The notes under the pieces were generated by a model, which did no database searches, was not told the origin of the DNA, and saw only the letters and a program-made list of their open reading frames with translations. The translations under genes and the position numbers were made by a program. Below are positions 51,255 to 59,805 of a DNA stretch of 64,000 bases, one piece after another. This DNA comes from Ramlibacter cellulosilyticus (GTDB lineage: Bacteria; Pseudomonadota; Gammaproteobacteria; Burkholderiales; Burkholderiaceae_C): contig NZ_JACORT010000003.1 in the NCBI RefSeq assembly GCF_014297465.1, positions 1-64,000 of the forward strand, read 5' to 3'. Within the stretch, counting starts at the first letter, position 1. The number at the start of each line of letters is the position of its first letter.

Positions 51255-51336
51255 GTAGGCTGGGTTGCCCGAAGGGCACCCCAGCTTTTCGCGGCGGCAC
51301 GCATCGCTGGGGTGCGCTTCGCGCAACCCAGCCTAC
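51255..51336. repeat. Type A inverted repeat, copy 4
   Basis: GTAGGCTGGGTTGCCCGAAG...CCCCAGC and GCTGGGGTGCGCTTCGCGCA...GCCTAC pair with few mismatches around a loop of about 20 bases. It lies between fumC and the operator region of the next operon. Confidence 0.88.
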
Positions 51337-51391
51337 GACCCGGAGCGCGGATGACCAGGAACTGGGACAAACCCTCAAGCCTTCTTCCCTC

Positions 51392-51424
51392 AGTGTCGAC
51401 GTTAGGGTCTGAAGTGTTGACACT
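51392..51424. promoter_or_regulatory. Tandem GntR-type operators upstream of the ABC/PrpD operon
   Basis: AGTGTCGACGTT (51392-51403) and AGTGTTGACACT (51413-51424) share an AGTGTCGACACT-like dyad. Their centres are 21 bases apart. TTGACA inside the second site (51418-51423) is a good -35 box with CAACAT (51440-51445) 16 bases on, so a bound repressor would block the promoter. The same dyad and spacing occur before the gntR gene at 59773-59805. Confidence 0.75.
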
Positions 51425-51485
51425 TTGAAAATCCGTCTCCAACATGCGCCAGCGGTCCGCGCATGGCCGCGTCAAGGAGACAAGC

Positions 51486-52526
51486 ATGTCCGTGAAGCCC
51501 GCCGCCGCCCTGGCGCTCGTGGCCGCACTTGCAGCCGGTGCGGCCCATTCCCAAGCTCCCGCTCCCTACGACGCGACGCCGCAGCTGGTGGCCGCCGCGC
51601 AGAAGGAAGGCAAGGTCGTCTGGTACTCCGCCACCGACGTCCAGGTCGCCGAGAAGCTCGCCCGTGCCTTCGAGGCGAAGTACCCGGGCATCAAGGTGCA
51701 GGTGGAGCGCTCCGGCGCCGAGCGCATCTTCCAGCGCATCAACCAGGAGTACGGCTCGAAGATCCACAACGCGGACGTGGTGGAGACGTCCGACGCGGTG
51801 CACTTCATCCACTTCAAGAAGCAGGGCTGGCTGCAGCCGGCGGTGCCCAGCGAAGTGGCGAAGTTCTGGCCCAAGGACGAACGCGATCCCGACGGGCAGT
51901 TCGCGGTGTATCGCGCGCACCTCTCCGTGATCGCCTACAACACCAAGCTCGTGCCGAAGGAGCAGGCGCCGAAGTCGCACGCCGACCTGCTGGACCCGAA
52001 GTGGAACGGCAAGATCGTCAAGGCGCACCCGGGCTACAGCGGCACGATCATGACGGGCACGCAGGCCCTGAGCCAGTCGCCCCTCGGGTGGAAGTACTTC
52101 GAGGCGCTGGGCAAGCAGAAGATCATGCAGGTGCAGTCTTCCACCGAGCCGCCCAAGAAGCTGGCGGCCGGCGAGCGCCCCGTGATGGCCGACGGCAACG
52201 AGTACAACGTGTTCCTGCTGAAGGAAAGCGGCGTGCCCATCGAGCCGGTGTACGCGCCGGAAGGCACGCCCCTCGTCGAGGGCAACGCCGCCATCCTGAA
52301 GAACGCGCCAAACCCCAACGCGGCAAGGCTGTTCTACCACTTCATGTTCACGCGCGAGGCGCAGCAGCTCAATAGCGACGTCGGAGGCCTCCGCTCCTTC
52401 CATCCCGAGGTGAAGGAGAAAGCCGGCCGCATGCCGCTGTCGCAGATCAAGCTGCTGCACTCCGACCCCGAAAAGCTGGATCCGGAAAGCATCAAGAAGA
52501 AGTACGAAGAGTACTTCGGGACCTGA
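51486..52526 (+). CDS. Iron-type (family 1) ABC transporter substrate-binding protein
   Basis: This 346-residue periplasmic protein starts at ATG 51486 behind AAGGAGA. Signal peptide MSVKPAAALALVAALAAGAA cleaves near HSQA. The mature protein reads VVWYSATDVQVAEKLARAFEAKYPGIKVQVERSGAERIFQRI, the family-1/AfuA fold. It lacks the tandem Tyr cluster expected in ferric-binding proteins as far as I can see, and the operon encodes carbon enzymes, so an organic acid ligand is more likely than iron. The permease gene starts 3 bases after its stop. Control is by the tandem operators upstream. Confidence 0.85.
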   Translation: MSVKPAAALALVAALAAGAAHSQAPAPYDATPQLVAAAQKEGKVVWYSATDVQVAEKLARAFEAKYPGIKVQVERSGAERIFQRINQEYGSKIHNADVVETSDAVHFIHFKKQGWLQPAVPSEVAKFWPKDERDPDGQFAVYRAHLSVIAYNTKLVPKEQAPKSHADLLDPKWNGKIVKAHPGYSGTIMTGTQALSQSPLGWKYFEALGKQKIMQVQSSTEPPKKLAAGERPVMADGNEYNVFLLKESGVPIEPVYAPEGTPLVEGNAAILKNAPNPNAARLFYHFMFTREAQQLNSDVGGLRSFHPEVKEKAGRMPLSQIKLLHSDPEKLDPESIKKKYEEYFGT

Positions 52527-52529
52527 CCG

Positions 52530-54242
52530 GTGACGATCGCCGTTGAAGCCACCGAGGCGATCGCCAAGCCGCACTTCCGCGTCGACCTGCTCAAGCCGGT
52601 GTTCTGGGCACTGGCTGCGGTGCTGGCCGTCCTGGTGGTGCTGCCGCTGGCCTGGCTCGCCTACTACGCGGTCGTCGACAAGAACGGCCAGCTGACGCTG
52701 GCCAACTTCGCGGCGCTGGTGAACGACGCCACGCTGCGCAAGCCCTACCTGCTCGCGATGGGGATGGCGCTGGGCGTCGGCGCGCTGTCCTGCGCCATCG
52801 CGACACCGCTCGCGTGGCTGGTGTCGCGCACCAACCTGCCGGGGCGGCGCGTGGTGCGCGCGCTGGTCACGGCATCCTTCGTCACGCCGCCTTTCCTCGG
52901 CGCGATCGCGTGGGAGATCCTGGCGGCGCCGAACAGCGGGCTCGTCAACGTCTTCTGGCGGCAGCTCACCGGGGCGCAGCCGTACGACGCGCTGGTCAAC
53001 ATCTACACCTTCACCGGGCTGGTGTTCGCCATCGCCTGCTACACCTTCCCCTATGTCTTCACGCTGGTCGCCAACGGCCTCGACCGGGTGCCGGCGGACC
53101 TCGAGGACGCCTCTTCCATCCTCGGCGGCCGCGCCTGGACCACGCTGCGGCGCGTGACGCTGCCGCTGGTGCTGCCGGCGATGCTCGCGGGCTCGCTCAT
53201 CGCGATCCTGCAGGCGCTGACGATGTTCGGCTCGCCCGCCATCCTCGCCTTGCCCGCGGGCTTCCACGTGATCACGACCAAGATCTGGAGCCTCTTCCAG
53301 TTCCCGCCCAAGCCGGGGCTCGCCGCGGCCGCCGCGCTGCCGCTGCTGCTGATCACCGTGCTGCTGCTGCAGGGCAAGAGCTGGATCCTGGGCCGCAAGG
53401 GCTACACCGTGCTGGGCGGCAAGAGCGGCGAGCCCCGCGTCACGCAGCTCGGGCTGTGGATGCCGGTCGCGGTGCTGTTCGCCTTCTTCGTGCTGTCGCT
53501 CACCGTCCTCCTGCCGTATGCGGCGCTGGTGAAGGCCGCGCTGACGAAGAACGGCGTGGACGGCCTCACGCTGCACAACTTCCACTTCGTGTTCTTCGAG
53601 TTCTCGGCCACGCGGCTCGCGATGTGGAACACCTTCCTGCTCGGTTTCTCCACCGCGACCATCGGCACGGGCCTCGCGCTGCTGGCGGCCTACATGGTCT
53701 CGCGCACGCCGGTGCGCGGCGCGGGGATGCTGGGCATGCTGGCCACGGCACCCGTGGCGATCCCCGGCATCGTGCTGGGCGTCGGCCTGTTCCTCACCTA
53801 CTCGCACCCGCAGCTGATGCTGTACGGCACGCTGTGGATCCTGCTGATCGCCTTCCTCACCATCGAGATGCCCGCGGGCTACCAGCAGATGTCCGCGGCC
53901 TTCCACGGCATCCACCCCGAGCTGGAGGAGGCGAGCCGCATCCTGGGCGCGAGCCGCCTGAAGACGCTGCGCCTGATCACGGCGCCCCTGCTGCGCACGA
54001 GCGTCATCGCCACCTGGTGCTTCGTCTTCATCGGCACGATCCGCGAGCTGTCCGCGACCATCCTGCTCACCACCGCGAACACCAAGCTGGTGTCCGTGAT
54101 CATCTACGACCTCAACGAAAGCGGCGACATGGGCGCGATCTCGGTGCTCGGGATCACGTTGCTCGCCGTCTCGTTCACCGTGGTCGTGATCGCCAACCGC
54201 CTGCCCCTGCTGGGCGGACCGCGCCTGCCGGCGCTGCGCTGA
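52530..54242 (+). CDS. Fused two-domain ABC permease (FbpB type)
   Basis: The 570-residue inner-membrane permease starts at GTG 52530 and has about twelve hydrophobic segments in two halves. Each half carries the ABC permease coupling motif: EDASSILGGRAWTTLRRVTLPLVLPAMLAG near residue 190 and EEASRILGASRLKTLRLITAPLLRTSVIA near 470 (the EAA loop). This duplicated layout is typical of ferric, spermidine or phosphonate importers of the family-1 type. It works with the ATPase that follows after 12 bases. Confidence 0.9.
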   Translation: MTIAVEATEAIAKPHFRVDLLKPVFWALAAVLAVLVVLPLAWLAYYAVVDKNGQLTLANFAALVNDATLRKPYLLAMGMALGVGALSCAIATPLAWLVSRTNLPGRRVVRALVTASFVTPPFLGAIAWEILAAPNSGLVNVFWRQLTGAQPYDALVNIYTFTGLVFAIACYTFPYVFTLVANGLDRVPADLEDASSILGGRAWTTLRRVTLPLVLPAMLAGSLIAILQALTMFGSPAILALPAGFHVITTKIWSLFQFPPKPGLAAAAALPLLLITVLLLQGKSWILGRKGYTVLGGKSGEPRVTQLGLWMPVAVLFAFFVLSLTVLLPYAALVKAALTKNGVDGLTLHNFHFVFFEFSATRLAMWNTFLLGFSTATIGTGLALLAAYMVSRTPVRGAGMLGMLATAPVAIPGIVLGVGLFLTYSHPQLMLYGTLWILLIAFLTIEMPAGYQQMSAAFHGIHPELEEASRILGASRLKTLRLITAPLLRTSVIATWCFVFIGTIRELSATILLTTANTKLVSVIIYDLNESGDMGAISVLGITLLAVSFTVVVIANRLPLLGGPRLPALR

Positions 54243-54254
54243 AAAGAAGAACCA

Positions 54255-55316
54255 ATGGGATTCCTCGAACTCCAGGGCCTCACGAAACGCTACGCCGGCG
54301 CGCCGGTGGTGAAGGACGTCTCGCTCTCCGTCGACAAGGGCCAGCTGGTCTGCCTGCTCGGGCCCTCGGGCTGCGGCAAGACGACGACGCTGCGCCTCAT
54401 CGCGGGTTTCGTCGAGCCGGACGGCGGCGAGATCCGCGTGGGCGGCCGCCGCATCTCCGCACCCGGCGACAGCGAGGCGCCCGAGCGCCGCAACATGTCG
54501 ATGATCTTCCAGAGCTACGCGCTCTGGCCGCACATGACGGTGTTCGACAACGTCGCGTACGGCCTCAAGTTGCGCGGCCTGTCGAAGAACGACACGCAGC
54601 AGCGCGCGGAAACCATCCTCGCCGCCACGAAGCTTTCGCAGCTCGCGCAGCGCTATCCCGGCGAGCTCTCCGGCGGCCAGCAGCAGCGGGTGTCGCTTGC
54701 GCGCGCGCTGGTGGTCGAGCCGGAGACGCTGCTGCTCGACGAGCCGCTCTCCAACCTCGACGCCAACCTGCGCGAGGAGATGCGCTTCGAGATCCGGCGC
54801 CTGCACGACAAGTACCGCTACACGACCGTCTACGTCACGCACGACCAGGCCGAGGCAATGACGACGGCCGACCTCATCGTCGTGATGAACAACGGCGTGA
54901 TCGAGCAGGCCGGCTCGCCGGAAGACGTGTACCAGCGGCCGAAGACGGAGTTCGTCGCCCGCTTCATAGGCGGCACCAACATCCTGCGCGGCAAGTGGGA
55001 CGGCCAGGACGGGGTGGCGTCGGCCAACGGCCTGTTCCTCCGCTGCGGCTCGGGCGAGTTCGCCAAGGACGGCGACACCGCCGTCTCCCTGCGCCACCAC
55101 GACGTGCACCTGAGCGCGACGAAGCCCGCCGAGACCAATTGCGTGCAAGGCACGGTCACCCGCCAGATCTACCTGGGCTCGCACCGCGACTACCTGGTGA
55201 CGCTGCCCGACGGCGAGAGCGTGCGGGCCGTCGCGCCGTCCGACTTCAGCCTGGCGCCCGGCGCGTCCGTCTGGCTGCACCTGCCGCCCGCGCACTGCCG
55301 CGCCCTGGCGCACTGA
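54255..55316 (+). CDS. ABC transporter ATPase with C-terminal TOBE domain
   Basis: The 353-residue ATPase begins MGFLELQGLTKRYAGAPVVKDVSL behind AAAGAAGAA. Walker A GPSGCGKTT, signature LSGGQQQRVSLARAL, Walker B TLLLDEPLSNLD and switch His in YVTHDQAEAMTTAD are intact. Residues about 240-350 form the regulatory TOBE-like domain (FIGGTNILRGKW onward). It belongs to the PotA/FbpC group. The ligand is set by the upstream binding protein. Confidence 0.92.
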   Translation: MGFLELQGLTKRYAGAPVVKDVSLSVDKGQLVCLLGPSGCGKTTTLRLIAGFVEPDGGEIRVGGRRISAPGDSEAPERRNMSMIFQSYALWPHMTVFDNVAYGLKLRGLSKNDTQQRAETILAATKLSQLAQRYPGELSGGQQQRVSLARALVVEPETLLLDEPLSNLDANLREEMRFEIRRLHDKYRYTTVYVTHDQAEAMTTADLIVVMNNGVIEQAGSPEDVYQRPKTEFVARFIGGTNILRGKWDGQDGVASANGLFLRCGSGEFAKDGDTAVSLRHHDVHLSATKPAETNCVQGTVTRQIYLGSHRDYLVTLPDGESVRAVAPSDFSLAPGASVWLHLPPAHCRALAH

Positions 55317-55351
55317 ACCCATCCCGACCGACACACCAAGAGGAGCATGTC

Positions 55352-56773
55352 GTGAGCATCACCCAGCAACAGGCCGCGGAACACCTGACGCACTACGTGG
55401 CCGATTTCGTCTGCAGCACGCGCCTGCAGGACCTGCCGCAGGACGTCGTGGGCCTGGGGAAGAAGTCCATCCTCGACGGCATCGGGCTGGCGCTGTCCGG
55501 CGGCGCCAGCCATCTCGGAGAACTGGTGCGTCGCCACCTCGCGGACCTGCACCTGGGCAACGGTCCCGCCACGGTGATCGGCACGCGGCTGAAGGTCGCG
55601 CCGCGCTTCGCCGCCTTCGCCAACGGCGTGGGCATCCACGCCGACGACTACGACGACACGCAATTGGCCGTCGCGACGGACCGCGTGTACGGGCTGCTGA
55701 CGCACCCCACGGCGCCCGCGCTTCCTGCAGCGCTCGCGATGGCCGAAACGCTGGGCGCGAGCGGTGCGGATGCGATGCTGGCCTACCACCTCGGCGTGGA
55801 GGTCGAGTGCAAGATCTCGGAGGCCATCCACCCGCGCCACTACCAGACGGGTTTCCACTCCACCGCGACCTGCGGCACCTTCGCGGCGGCATCGGCCGCT
55901 TCGAAGCTGATGGGGCTCTCCGAAGAAGCGACCTGCCGCGCCTTGTCGATCGCGGGCAGCCAGTCGGCCGGACTGCGCGAGAACTTCGGGACGATGACCA
56001 AGCCCTTTCACGCGGGGCGTTCGTCGGAGAGCGGCGTCGCCGCGGCGCAATTCGCCTCCTACGGCTGGACGGCCACGGACAGGATCCTGGAAGCGCCGCG
56101 TGGCTTCTTCAGCGCCGCGGGCGGCGGCTACGACGCGAACGCGATCGCCGGCCGCCTCGGCAAGCCCTGGACCTTTGCCGAGCCGGGCGTGTCGATCAAG
56201 CCGCACCCGAGCGGCTCGCTGACGCACCCGGGCATGACGGAGATGCTGCGGCTGATCCGCGAGAACCGGATCCAGGCAAGCGACGTGGTGCGCGTGCGCG
56301 TCGGCACCAACCACAACATGCCCAACGCGCTGATCCACCACCGCCCGACCAACGAGCTGCAGGCCAAGTTCTCCATGGAGTTCTGCATGGCGATCCTGCT
56401 GCTGGAGGGCCGCGCGGGGCTGAACGAGTTCACCGACGCAGTGGTGAACCGCCCCGACGTGAAGAAGATGATCGAGAAGGTCGACTTCGTCGTCGACAAG
56501 GACGCGGAAGCGGCCGGGTACCACAAGATGACCACGATCATCGACATCGAGCTGGCCGGCGGCCGCAAGGTGAGCGGCCGCGCCGACTTCGGCAAGGGCA
56601 GCCCCGCCATGCCCATGACCTACAACGAAGTCGCCGACAAGTTCCGCGAGAACGCGGAGTTCGCGAAGTTCCCGAAGCAGAAGGCGGAAGAGGTGGTTGC
56701 GATGGTGCGGGAGCTGGAGACGCTGCCCAGGATCTCCACGTTGATGGACTCGCTGGCCCATGACCGCAGCTGA
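55352..56773 (+). CDS. MmgE/PrpD family protein
   Basis: This 473-residue enzyme starts at GTG 55352 behind AGAGGAG; an ATG at 55347 runs straight into TGA. The MmgE/PrpD fold is shown by DGIGLALSGGASHLGELVRR near residue 45, NGVGIHADDYDD near 88, and the helical region ALSIAGSQSAGLRENFGTMTKPFHAGRSSESGVAAAQFA near 200-240, with KPHPSGSLTHPGM near 285. Members include 2-methylcitrate dehydratase, cis-aconitate decarboxylase and iminodisuccinate epimerase, all acting on di- or tricarboxylates. The exact reaction is not predictable. It overlaps the next gene by 14 bases. Confidence 0.85.
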   Translation: MSITQQQAAEHLTHYVADFVCSTRLQDLPQDVVGLGKKSILDGIGLALSGGASHLGELVRRHLADLHLGNGPATVIGTRLKVAPRFAAFANGVGIHADDYDDTQLAVATDRVYGLLTHPTAPALPAALAMAETLGASGADAMLAYHLGVEVECKISEAIHPRHYQTGFHSTATCGTFAAASAASKLMGLSEEATCRALSIAGSQSAGLRENFGTMTKPFHAGRSSESGVAAAQFASYGWTATDRILEAPRGFFSAAGGGYDANAIAGRLGKPWTFAEPGVSIKPHPSGSLTHPGMTEMLRLIRENRIQASDVVRVRVGTNHNMPNALIHHRPTNELQAKFSMEFCMAILLLEGRAGLNEFTDAVVNRPDVKKMIEKVDFVVDKDAEAAGYHKMTTIIDIELAGGRKVSGRADFGKGSPAMPMTYNEVADKFRENAEFAKFPKQKAEEVVAMVRELETLPRISTLMDSLAHDRS

Positions 56774-57788
56774 CCCGCGGCCCGTGCTGGGATTGATGCC
56801 CGGCGACATGACGGGCATCGGCCCCGAAATCACCGCGAAGCTCCTCGCCAGCAACAAGCTGCGCGACGTCGCCCGCATCGCCGTCGTCGGCGACGCCCGC
56901 GTCTTCGACCTCGGCTGCCGCGACGCGAAGATCGAGCCGCAGTGGCGCTGCTACTCCGCGGTGCGCGACATCGACTGGTCACGCAACGAAATCCCCGTCG
57001 TCGACCTCGCGAACATCGACCCCGCGAAGCTCCCCCGCCGCGAGAACTCCCCCGAATCCGGCCGCCTCACCGGCGAGACGCTGCAGCACATGACGCAGCT
57101 CGCGCAGCGCGGCGAGATCGAAGGCGTCACCTTCGCGCCCCTGTCCAAGGCCGCCCTGCACCAGGGCGGCTGGAAGTACCACGACGAGCACCAGATGTTC
57201 GCCGCGTGGAATGACCACCAGGGCTTCTTCGGCGAGATGAACGTCATCGAGCAGTTCTCCACCTTCCGCGTCACCTCGCACGTGGCGCTGCGGCAGGCGC
57301 TGGAGCTGGTGACGCCCGAGCGCATCGCGTCCGCCGTGCGCCTGGCTGACCGCAGCCTGCGCGAAGCCGGACACGCCAAACCCCGCATCGGCGTGGCGGC
57401 GCTCAACCCGCACTGCGGCGAAGGCGGGCTCTTCGGCGACGAGGAGATCCGGCTCATCGCGCCGACGGTGAAGCGGCTGGCGGAAGAGGGCATCGCGGTG
57501 AGCGGGCCGATCTCCTCCGACGCGATCTTCCTCAAGGCGCTCCGGGGCGAGTACGACGGGGTGGTCATGATGTACCACGACCAGGGGCAGATCGCGACCA
57601 AGCTCCTGGGCTTCCACAAGGGCGTCACGGTCACGGCGGGGCTGAAGACCGTGTACACGACGCCCGCGCACGGCACCGCGTTCGACATCACGGGGCAGGG
57701 CAAGGCCGACACGGGGGCGCTGGAGCAGGCGCTGCGCATCGCGGCACGCATGGCCCTCGCCCGCAGGAAAGGGAAGGTGGCCGCATGA
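56760..57788 (+). CDS. PdxA2-like 4-hydroxythreonine-4-phosphate dehydrogenase family protein
   Basis: The 342-residue protein begins MTAADPRPVLGLMPGDMTGIGPEITAKLLAS, the PdxA N-terminal block. Metal-binding His residues lie in KYHDEHQMFA, in YHDQGQIATKLLGF and in TPAHGTAFDITGQGKAD. LNPHCGEGGLFGDEE is also family-typical. PdxA2 proteins outside vitamin B6 synthesis oxidise other 4-phosphorylated or hydroxylated acids, for example in D-threonate and D-erythronate breakdown. No DUF1537 kinase is present here, so the substrate may be unphosphorylated. The gene overlaps both neighbours, which points to one pathway. Confidence 0.85.
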   Translation: MTAADPRPVLGLMPGDMTGIGPEITAKLLASNKLRDVARIAVVGDARVFDLGCRDAKIEPQWRCYSAVRDIDWSRNEIPVVDLANIDPAKLPRRENSPESGRLTGETLQHMTQLAQRGEIEGVTFAPLSKAALHQGGWKYHDEHQMFAAWNDHQGFFGEMNVIEQFSTFRVTSHVALRQALELVTPERIASAVRLADRSLREAGHAKPRIGVAALNPHCGEGGLFGDEEIRLIAPTVKRLAEEGIAVSGPISSDAIFLKALRGEYDGVVMMYHDQGQIATKLLGFHKGVTVTAGLKTVYTTPAHGTAFDITGQGKADTGALEQALRIAARMALARRKGKVAA

Positions 57789-58855
57789 AGGACCCGCACC
57801 TGGTGCTGGGCGTGCTGGAGGGCGACGACATCGGGCACGAGGTCGTGCCGGCGTCCGTGCAGGTCGCGTCCGCCGCGGCGGAGCAGCACGGGCTGCGCAT
57901 CCAGTGGAAGCCGATGCCAGTCGGCCGGCGCGCGCTGGACACGCACGGCGCCACCTTGCCCGCGGGCACGCTGGAGACGCTGGCCACCTACGACGGCTTC
58001 GTGCTGGGCCCGATCGGCCACCGCGAGTACCCGAAGGTGCCGGGCGCGATCAACCCGCACCCGATCATGCGCAAGCACTTCAACCTGTTCGCCAACGTGC
58101 GGCCGACGCGCTCGTACCCGGACATCGGCTGCCTGCGCGACGACGTGGACCTGGTGATCGTGCGCGAGAACAACGAGGGCTTCCAGCCGGACCGCAACGT
58201 GGTGGCGGGCTCGGGCGAGTTCCGCCCCAGCGAGGACATGACCATCTCCGTGCGCGTGATCACGCGCAAGGGCAGCGACCGGGTGGCGCGCGTGGCGCTC
58301 GCGCTCGCGCGCAGCCGCCGCAAGAAGCTCACCGTGGTGCACAAGAACACGGTGTTCAAGCTCGGTTGCGGCATGTTCGTCGAGGAGTGCCTGAAGGCCG
58401 CGAAGGACTTCCCCGACGTGGAAGTGAACGAGGTGATCGTCGACACCATGGCCATGCGCCTGGTGCGCGACCCGCACAACTTCGACGTCGTGGTCACCAC
58501 CAACATGTTCGGCGACATCCTCACCGACGAAGCCGCGGGGCTGGTGGGCGGCCTGGGCATGGCGCCGGGCCTGTGCATCGGCGACGGCGACTTCGCGATG
58601 GCACAGGCCACGCACGGCTCGGCGCCGGACATCGCGGGGCAGGGGAAGGCGAATCCCTATGCGATGGTGGATTCGACGCGGATGCTGCTCGACTGGCTGG
58701 GGCGGCGGAAGAACATCCCGCAGGCCGTGGCGGCGGCGGGGAGCATGGAGCGCGGGCTGACCGCGGCGCTCGCGGATGCGAAGGCGCGGACGGGGGATAT
58801 TCGGGGGCAAGGCAACACGGAGTCGTTTACCCGCGCGGTGATCGGCAACCTGTAG
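57785..58855 (+). CDS. Isocitrate/isopropylmalate dehydrogenase family enzyme
   Basis: This 356-residue NAD-type beta-decarboxylating dehydrogenase begins MKDPHLVLGVLEGDDIGHEVVPA. Substrate-binding Arg lies in NVRPTRSYPD, with IVRENNEGF, the catalytic Lys block VVHKNTVFKLG, and metal Asp residues in IVDTMAMRLV and TTNMFGDILTDEAAGLVGG. HGSAPDIAGQGKANP is the NAD-binding loop. RENNEGF rather than RENTEGEY, and a general divergence, put it with tartrate or other 2-hydroxyacid dehydrogenases rather than LeuB. It would oxidise and decarboxylate a 2-hydroxy-dicarboxylate. It starts inside the pdxA2 stop codon. Confidence 0.87.
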   Translation: MKDPHLVLGVLEGDDIGHEVVPASVQVASAAAEQHGLRIQWKPMPVGRRALDTHGATLPAGTLETLATYDGFVLGPIGHREYPKVPGAINPHPIMRKHFNLFANVRPTRSYPDIGCLRDDVDLVIVRENNEGFQPDRNVVAGSGEFRPSEDMTISVRVITRKGSDRVARVALALARSRRKKLTVVHKNTVFKLGCGMFVEECLKAAKDFPDVEVNEVIVDTMAMRLVRDPHNFDVVVTTNMFGDILTDEAAGLVGGLGMAPGLCIGDGDFAMAQATHGSAPDIAGQGKANPYAMVDSTRMLLDWLGRRKNIPQAVAAAGSMERGLTAALADAKARTGDIRGQGNTESFTRAVIGNL

Positions 58856-58868
58856 GTTGGTCGGATCC

Positions 58869-58944
58869 GTAGGCTGAGTTGCGCGAAGCGCACCCCAGCA
58901 GCGTGCGCGAAACGCTGGGGTGCGCTCCGCGCAACCCAGCCTAC
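58869..58944. repeat. Type A inverted repeat, copy 5
   Basis: GTAGGCTGAGTTGCGCGAAG...CCCCAGC and GCTGGGGTGCGCTCCGCGCA...GCCTAC form arms of 31 bases with two differences around a 14-base loop. It separates the dehydrogenase gene from the convergent gntR. Confidence 0.9.
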
Positions 58945-58946
58945 GA

Positions 58947-59042
58947 GTGCCTTCGGCAACCCCGCCCCGAGCGCCTGCGGCAACCCATCCCCGGGCGCCT
59001 TCGGCAACCCCGCCCCGAGCGCCCGCGGCCACCCAGCCGACG
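58947..59042. repeat. Four tandem 24-bp repeats
   Basis: Units start at 58947, 58971, 58995 and 59019. Units one and three differ only at their first bases (GTGCCTTCGGCAACCCCGCC against GCGCCTTCGGCAACCCCGCC). Units two and four are diverged copies (GCGCCTGCGGCAACCCATCC, GCGCCCGCGGCCACCCAGCC). The unit length is a multiple of three, but no supported gene covers it. It lies just downstream of gntR. Confidence 0.85.
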
Positions 59043-59059
59043 GGCCGCCACGCGCAGGC

Positions 59060-59725
59060 TCAGTGTTCTTCCGCCAGCGCGAGCAGCCGCGTCCGCCCCG
59101 CCTGGATGTGCTCCTCGGCGTACTGCTTCGCCTTGGCCGCGTTTCCCTTGGCGATCGCCTCGTAGATCCTGCGGTGTTCCACGTTGGAGCGGCGCATGTT
59201 GCCCGGCGCGTTGAAGTTCTGGCGGCGGTACAGGTGCAGCTCCTTCACGTAGCTGTCGTACAGCTGCCGCGCGCGCTCGTGGTGCGAAAGCGTGAGCACC
59301 AGCTCGTGGAAGCGGACGTTGAGGTCGTAGTAGAGCCCGCTGTCGTTCTCCTGGGCGGCGGTGTCCATGCCGTCCAGGAGCGACTCGAAGGCGGCACGGT
59401 CCCGGTCGGTCACGTGCTCGCAGGCCCGCTCCGCCGCGAAGCCGAAGACCAGGGCGCGCAGCTCGTAGATCTCCAGCATCTCCTGGATCGAGACCTTGCG
59501 CACGAACACGCCGCGGTTCACGACCGGCGTGACCAGCCCCGTGCCGGTGAGGATGCGGATCGCCTCGCGGATCGGCCCGCGGCTGGTGCCCATGCGCACC
59601 GCCAGCGCCGCCTCGTTCAGGCGGTCGCCCGCCTTGAACTCGCCGGCGTAGATCAGCTGCTTCAGCTGCTCCGCGATCTGCCGCGACAGGCCTTCGGTGG
59701 TCTGGATGGGAGGGATGGCGCTCAT
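59060..59725 (-). CDS. GntR-family regulator with FCD domain
   Basis: The 221-residue repressor begins [28 protein letters not shown]. The winged helix-turn-helix occupies about residues 12-78 ([33 protein letters not shown]). The C-terminal FCD ligand domain (about 85-215) has the metal-site residues spread over [10 protein letters not shown], the HHE stretch and [12 protein letters not shown] proteins bind a small carboxylate with a metal ion. It is convergent with the ABC/PrpD operon, and both promoters carry the same operator pair, so it should repress that operon and itself until the substrate appears. Confidence 0.9.
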
Positions 59726-59761
59726 GACTGCACCGCCGCCCGGGCGGCGGCGATGTCGGCA

Positions 59762-59805
59762 ATCATAGCAATCGTGTCGACGCTGTCACGGAGATTGTCG
59801 ACACT
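59762..59805 (-). promoter_or_regulatory. gntR promoter with tandem GTCGAC operators
   Basis: On the minus strand GTGACA (59789-59784) and TATGAT (59767-59762) are 16 bases apart and fit sigma70. One dyad, CGTGTCGACGCT (59773-59784), sits in the spacer; the second, ATTGTCGACACT (59794-59805), lies 21 bases upstream centre to centre. The arrangement fits autorepression. Confidence 0.72.

Follow-up and report, generated by a model that had tools for sequence, protein, structure and literature searches.

The 64,000-nucleotide stretch of Ramlibacter cellulosilyticus DNA analysed here (the window) contains an operon of ATP-binding cassette (ABC) importer, MmgE/PrpD, PdxA-family, and idh-family genes (51486-58855) and, facing its end, gntR, which encodes a GntR/FCD-type regulator. 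Two TGTCGACA-like dyads stand at the promoter of the operon and at that of gntR; their centers are 21 bp apart in both, and the two copies of this paired element lie 8.4 kb apart. The element is very probably a real, evenly spaced operator shared by gntR and the operon. Judging from the sequence and from comparison with other species of the genus Ramlibacter, we consider it highly likely that the dyads serve as operators for the FCD-type GntR protein encoded nearby, which would repress itself and its pathway and would be released by an organic acid.

Paired dyads in the operon and gntR promoters

In the operon promoter, sequence and comparison define a distal dyad AGTGTCGACGTT (51392-51403, plus strand; core TGTCGACG at 51394-51401) and a proximal dyad AGTGTTGACACT (51413-51424, plus strand), which holds the -35 box TTGACA (51417-51422). 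A weak -10-like CAACAT read by eye lies 17 bp past TTGACA (51440-51445, plus strand), and several relatives have AATAAT one base farther on. A sigma-70 scan of the window operon promoter gave no complete match, the -10 box being weak in this genome. The gntR promoter was found by the same type of scan as GTGACA-16-TATGAT on the minus strand (59789-59762), with the -35 box at 59784-59789 and the -10 box at 59762-59767. Its spacer holds one dyad (59773-59784, minus strand; CGTGTCGACGCT on the plus strand), and a dyad with a perfect TGTCGACA core lies upstream of the -35 box (59794-59805, minus strand; ATTGTCGACACT on the plus strand), both defined by sequence and comparison. A third, weaker dyad TGCCGACA is located directly downstream of the -10 box in the same 21-bp register (59754-59761, minus strand); of 14 intact promoters, 10 have at least five of eight matches there, and the dyad was also recovered as a one-mismatch pair in a genome pattern search. 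The predicted operator cores, GTCGAC and GTTGAC, fit the palindromic GT-N2/3-AC core of the FadR (FCD) subfamily.

An earlier, sequence-only reading of this DNA had described two dyads with centers 21 bases apart in both promoters, one of them over TTGACA in the operon promoter and one between the -35 and -10 boxes of gntR, and we found them at the same positions. It had also given the dyads outer AGTGT/ACACT bases. The full arms occur together in 51413-51424 but not in the other three of the four dyads, and the third gntR dyad had been overlooked.

The short pair TGTYGAC-N14-TGTYGAC occurs without mismatch at four places in the 5.5-Mb host genome, namely the two promoters, a urease alpha gene, and a metal-dependent hydrolase gene. 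Since two of the four exact copies lie within coding DNA, the short pair alone is not unique, and we rejected it as a unique mark. The 31-bp pattern GTGTYGAC-N14-TGTYGACAC, with up to two mismatches, had three matches in the whole genome, at the two promoters and, with two mismatches, at one site on contig C12. The best pair score was 17-21 of 24 in 11 operon promoters, and among 3300 dinucleotide shuffles two reached 17 and none scored higher. Eleven of 14 gntR promoters scored at least 17, as did 5 of 4200 dinucleotide shuffles.

Conservation of the pair and its link to the regulator

The sequence-only reading had set beforehand a search for the pairs in orthologous promoters, and we ran it in same-genus genomes. 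Orthologues of gntR (67-89% identical) were found in 16 of 58 such genomes besides the window's own; in 13 of them the gene has the window's position, at the far end of the operon, and in three (L054-L056) it is divergent from the operon. Genome G099 carries a regulator 64-65% identical at a different place, unlinked to the ABC operon, and the regulator-bearing genomes were counted as 18 (the window genome, the 16 orthologue genomes, and G099). The pair stands upstream of the operon in every one of the 17 genomes with the regulator and a readable promoter, the window included (13 with the window's gene order, three divergent, and G099); the operon promoter of G002, with only 38 bases on its contig, was left out. 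It precedes gntR in 11 of the 14 genomes with the window's gene order. The distance between the sites is constant, with 21 bp in intact pairs across the genus. A more distant relative in which gntR is divergent from the operon (L074) lies on a contig labelled Herminiimonas (Oxalobacteraceae), where the operon has 74-84% protein identity; this represents either lateral transfer or a misbinned contig.

Fourteen intact gntR promoters (11 with the window's gene order and three divergent; L043, L046, and L052 were dropped) were used for the counts of register and polarity. Among offsets from -20 to +67 from the first dyad, only 0, 21, and 42 reached a mean match to TGTCGACA of 3.6 of 8, the means there being 7.7, 6.8, and 5.2, respectively. 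L054 has dyads at all three offsets; L045 and L053 have none at offset 42. The pairwise identity in 11 operon promoters was 0.96 and 1.00 in the dyads, 0.75 in the spacer, and 0.31-0.53 in the flanks (upstream 0.31). The corresponding values for the gntR promoters were 0.98 and 0.92 in the dyads, 0.46 and 0.60 in the spacers, and 0.36-0.40 in the flanks. In this identity analysis, the anchors of L043, L046, L052, and L054 were placed by hand.

Among 60 same-genus genomes, the exact 29-bp form of the element occurs in 10 of the 18 with the regulator, at 16 places that are all at the operon or gntR promoter. It occurs in one of the 42 genomes without the regulator (G041), at one place covered by open frames 474 and 691 residues long. 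In three genomes (G010, G015, and G046), the operon prpD is present and no gntR orthologue was found. G015 keeps the order fumC, operon, UPF0114 gene, and acs, with gntR absent between pdxA2 and the UPF0114 gene. At a spacing of 21 bp, its element has a score of 7 of 24, compared with 17 in L051, which has gntR; the dyad remnants are 20 bp apart, and TTGACA and AATAAT are retained. In G010, a 76% complete assembly in which no gntR was found, the dyad remnants are likewise 20 bp apart, with a best score of 13, and TTGACA is again retained. G046 is uninformative, since prpD, between fumC and acs, was the sole operon gene recovered (L102, G046:C1:3204000-3219000). The prpD match of G046 holds one TGA.

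In G099, the regulator gene lies inside an operon with genes for a class III CoA-transferase, enoyl-CoA hydratase-like, zinc-dehydrogenase-like, and TctC-like proteins, a distant prpD, and idh; the gene families of this operon are given as shown for relatives. The TctC-like gene, the distant prpD (35%), and idh (73%) are found downstream at this locus (L115, G099:C1:4221000-4237000). The pair is present both at this CoA-transferase operon promoter (20 of 24) and at the ABC operon of G099 about 3 Mb away. In genomes with the regulator, it lies upstream of a class III CoA-transferase gene at 7 of 12 places, which are those of G001, G040, and G099 in the genus and of L076, L077, L078, and L080 outside it, the latter with gntR adjoining the CoA-transferase gene. 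At CoA-transferase places in genomes where no regulator was found, the pair was at none of seven. The regulon predicted from these sites in some relatives also takes in the CoA-transferase operon. The window genome gave no match to the CoA-transferase gene at E 1e-150 and has the long pattern at only two promoters; its regulon is therefore probably limited to these two. The earlier claim of a specific regulon thus stands for the window genome, where the long form is found essentially nowhere but at gntR and the operon, but it missed the further target operon of some relatives.

Seven genomes without idh in the operon (L092-L098) have an idh 70-75% identical elsewhere. In four of these (L093, L094, L097, and L098) it lies directly beside a class III CoA-transferase gene, which ties the two operons to one pathway. 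A wider regulon at idh was considered and rejected, the element being present at none of seven unlinked idh genes.

Proposed repression, its alternatives, and the origin of the two operators

We propose that dimers of the regulator would bind the two dyads at the operon and two to three at gntR. Because there is one dyad every 21 bp, that is, every two turns, the dimers would lie on the same face of the DNA, and their binding may be cooperative. At the operon they would cover the -35 box, and at gntR they would abut the -35 box, fill the spacer between the -35 and -10 boxes, and cover the start region. RNA polymerase would thereby be kept off both promoters, giving local repression and autorepression, and the dyad positions are such that they would block RNA polymerase, as the sequence-only reading had put it. 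Release of the repressor would come from a small organic acid of the pathway, which would probably bind via the metal site of the FCD domain.

Several observations weigh against this reading. Once a single mismatch is tolerated, 45 of the 60 genus genomes have a match to the 29-bp pattern, and hence only the exact form discriminates. The gntR pair is degraded in three of 14 promoters (L043, L046, and L052), where one or both dyads are lost; L043 and L046 keep the operon pair, and the operon promoter of L052 is unreadable. The 13-bp operon spacer (51402-51414) is unusually conserved (0.75), which two dimers do not explain. L074 has one strong dyad and a pair score of 13 of 24, the scoring having covered 300 bp upstream of the operon and reached the strong dyad only in part; it shows a 7/8, 5/8, 5/8 series of dyads in the same register and no full pair. 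Five of the 12 CoA-transferase places in genomes with the regulator have no element, and in four of these (L093, L094, L097, and L098) idh is directly upstream of the CoA-transferase gene, so that a promoter would not be expected at that position. The element is also missing from the 400 bp upstream of all seven unlinked idh genes (251 bp for L095). The spacing slip of G015 and G010 may reflect one common loss event. Given this and the possibility that gntR of G010 is missing from its assembly, the genomes without the regulator provide one firm case (G015) and one weaker case (G010).

For some FCD regulators, activity depends on a ligand. The sites could then belong to the regulator while it activates the operon or binds only with a ligand, the proximal dyad merely overlapping the promoter, and the conserved operon spacer could hold an extra contact. 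We regard this as unlikely, since the dyads cover the -35 box of the operon and sit inside the gntR promoter, the usual blocking position, and since G015 keeps TTGACA and AATAAT without gntR, as expected after the loss of a repressor. A different, perhaps more global, regulator binding the dyads is less likely still. The link to gntR consists of motif, neighborhood, and co-occurrence, which leaves room for such a protein. However, the long pattern amounts to two elements in the genome plus one two-mismatch match, the presence of the element tracks gntR with the spacing broken where gntR was not found, and sister gntR genes have similarly spaced dyads beside other operons. That the 21-bp pair arose by chance or as a by-product of promoter conservation is exceedingly improbable. 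Although TTGACA lies inside one dyad and short pairs are also found in coding DNA, the scores are far above those of the shuffles, the pair is also conserved in the promoters of gntR, whose boxes are distinct from the dyads, and G015 retains the boxes but not the register. Local repression by the FCD-type GntR protein is thus the reading that we prefer.

The two sites had been taken as independent, a claim that the comparison does not bear out. A matrix built from the operon copies gives higher scores to the gntR copies of 13 of 14 promoters when these are read in the direction opposite to gntR, with L045 as the exception. The element is thus polar, and its polarity is that expected when one copy serves both divergent genes. 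In L054-L056 the divergent genes have one shared element between them, and L076-L078 and L080 likewise have one between gntR and the CoA-transferase gene; in L077 and L078, gntR is divergent from the CoA-transferase gene. A single change in the protein tree separates the window's gene order from all others (split support 76%, midpoint root). Since polarity is common to both copies and divergent sister lineages have one common element, the two copies are probably not independent. We infer that the genes were divergent in the ancestral state and shared a single operator, and that each promoter was left with one when gntR moved; on this comparison, both operators are probably copies of one ancestral operator. 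It is possible, though we find it the less convincing account, that the copies arose independently by convergent selection, because the two promoters show no obvious homology outside the motif and equal polarity could be a functional need. That account is opposed by the shared element between divergent genes in the sister lineages, by the divergent order of L074, by the single change needed in the tree, and by the polarity being as predicted in 13 of 14. The retention of both sites since their origin is evidence for function. Overall, the conserved pairs, spacing, and positions of the sequence-only reading stood, whereas their independence did not.

The species comparison gives an unnamed FCD regulator a predicted operator and a small regulon. 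It also places two uncharacterized operons (ABC/PrpD/PdxA2/dehydrogenase and CoA-transferase/enoyl-CoA hydratase/TctC) in one likely pathway, and the compound that releases the regulator should be among the substrates or intermediates of this pathway. Genomes with the operon and without the regulator are natural controls for operator function.

Gene content, the regulator protein, and known FCD systems

The operon, on the plus strand, encodes an ABC transporter substrate-binding protein (51486-52526; PF01547/PF13416), whose remote PDB kin are mostly iron-binding substrate-binding proteins, a permease with two BPD_transp_1 stretches (52530-54242), and an ATPase (54255-55316), the latter two identified by domain search. 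These are followed by an MmgE/PrpD family protein (55352-56773, start approximate; PF03972 and PF19305), a PdxA2-like dehydrogenase of the PdxA family (56760-57788; PF04166), whose best PDB kin is D-threonate 4-phosphate dehydrogenase 6e85, and an isocitrate/isopropylmalate dehydrogenase family protein (idh, 57785-58855; PF00180). The gntR gene (59060-59725, minus strand; PF00392 and PF07729) encodes 221 residues, and a UPF0114 gene lies upstream of it on the same strand. The content of pdxA2 and idh varies among relatives: both are present in eight loci, pdxA2 only in L042 and L046-L051, and idh only in L043. We take both genes to encode enzymes of the beta-decarboxylating-dehydrogenase type. 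Similar hairpin repeats with arms like GGGGTGCGCTNCGCGCAACCCAGCCTAC are found at both operon ends (about 51255-51338 and 58868-58946). They have 125 + 130 matches in the genome at up to three mismatches, with none for a reversed control, and could have aided the rearrangement. The window genome has a second gntR/FCD gene (about 36% identical) adjoining a second prpD-like gene (36%) (L060, G000:C12:80000-90000), and the region upstream of this paralogous gntR holds no comparable 21-bp pair.

The regulator matches the GntR winged helix PF00392 with 60.8 bits (cut-off 27) and the FCD domain PF07729 with 98.4 bits (cut-off 24.3). Its best NCBIfam match, nearly full length, is the phosphonate-associated regulator TIGR03338 phnR_burk, with 181.9 bits, below the cut-off of 271.5. 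N136, H140, H184, and H206 are invariant in 18 sequences, have the same spacing as the metal ligands of Ps5454, and fit the D/N-x3-H...H...H class, forming a putative metal site. An organic acid held via a divalent metal is therefore the likely class of effector. Sister regulators (L081-L083; 56-58% identical) have two AAGTG-N4-CACTT dyads 21 bp apart upstream of gntR, with one arm GAGTG in L082. In these predicted operators, the 21-bp spacing outlasts the core letters.

The literature search found no report on this regulator or operon, a weak negative as subscription journals are poorly covered. In the part of the NanR report covered here (PMC8012715), three GntR-type dimers of E. coli NanR stand side by side on a repeated operator of closely spaced GGTATA repeats, and cooperativity is through a 32-residue N-terminal extension. 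By comparison with that part, dyad spacing here is 21 bp, and a winged helix that begins at residue 13 leaves no NanR-type extension. A tentative extension of our reading is that this FCD clade may assemble two or three dimers into a rigid, polar row whose register is fixed at 21 bp, without the N-terminal extension of NanR, the register being conserved more than the letters. In that scheme, the operons between which gntR moved (ABC/PrpD/PdxA2 and CoA-transferase) would belong to one pathway, and each promoter would have kept or acquired the entire polar row. The weight given to register over letters follows from the sister regulators, which changed the core but kept the spacing, and from the one-base slip that marks genomes in which no regulator was found.

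E. coli DgoR is described, in the portion of PMC7674646 covered, as an FCD repressor with a divalent metal site, a metal-dependent acid effector, and two inverted repeats over its promoter. As far as that portion goes, the window regulator resembles DgoR in having an FCD domain with a putative metal site and, by sequence, a repeated operator over its own promoter; it differs in that the sequences are remote (PDB 7c7e, E 1.6e-9) and the metal residues are not the same (D146, H150, and H195 in DgoR). FCD regulators with GT-N2-AC operators and constant-distance double sites are already known from the sections of Suvorova et al. 2015 (PMC4494728) covered here. These sections report palindromes with a GT-N2-AC core for the GntR, HpxS, HypR, MdcY, PrpR, and UxuR groups and interpret double sites at a constant distance in FadR-subfamily FCD regulators as co-operative control of both divergent operons; the group of the window regulator is not named in them. 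The present system shares with the cases in those sections the GntR winged helix with an FCD domain, the GT-N2-AC core, and double sites at a constant distance, and differs from them in that the paired element occurs as two separate copies, 8.4 kb from each other, one of which includes a third dyad.

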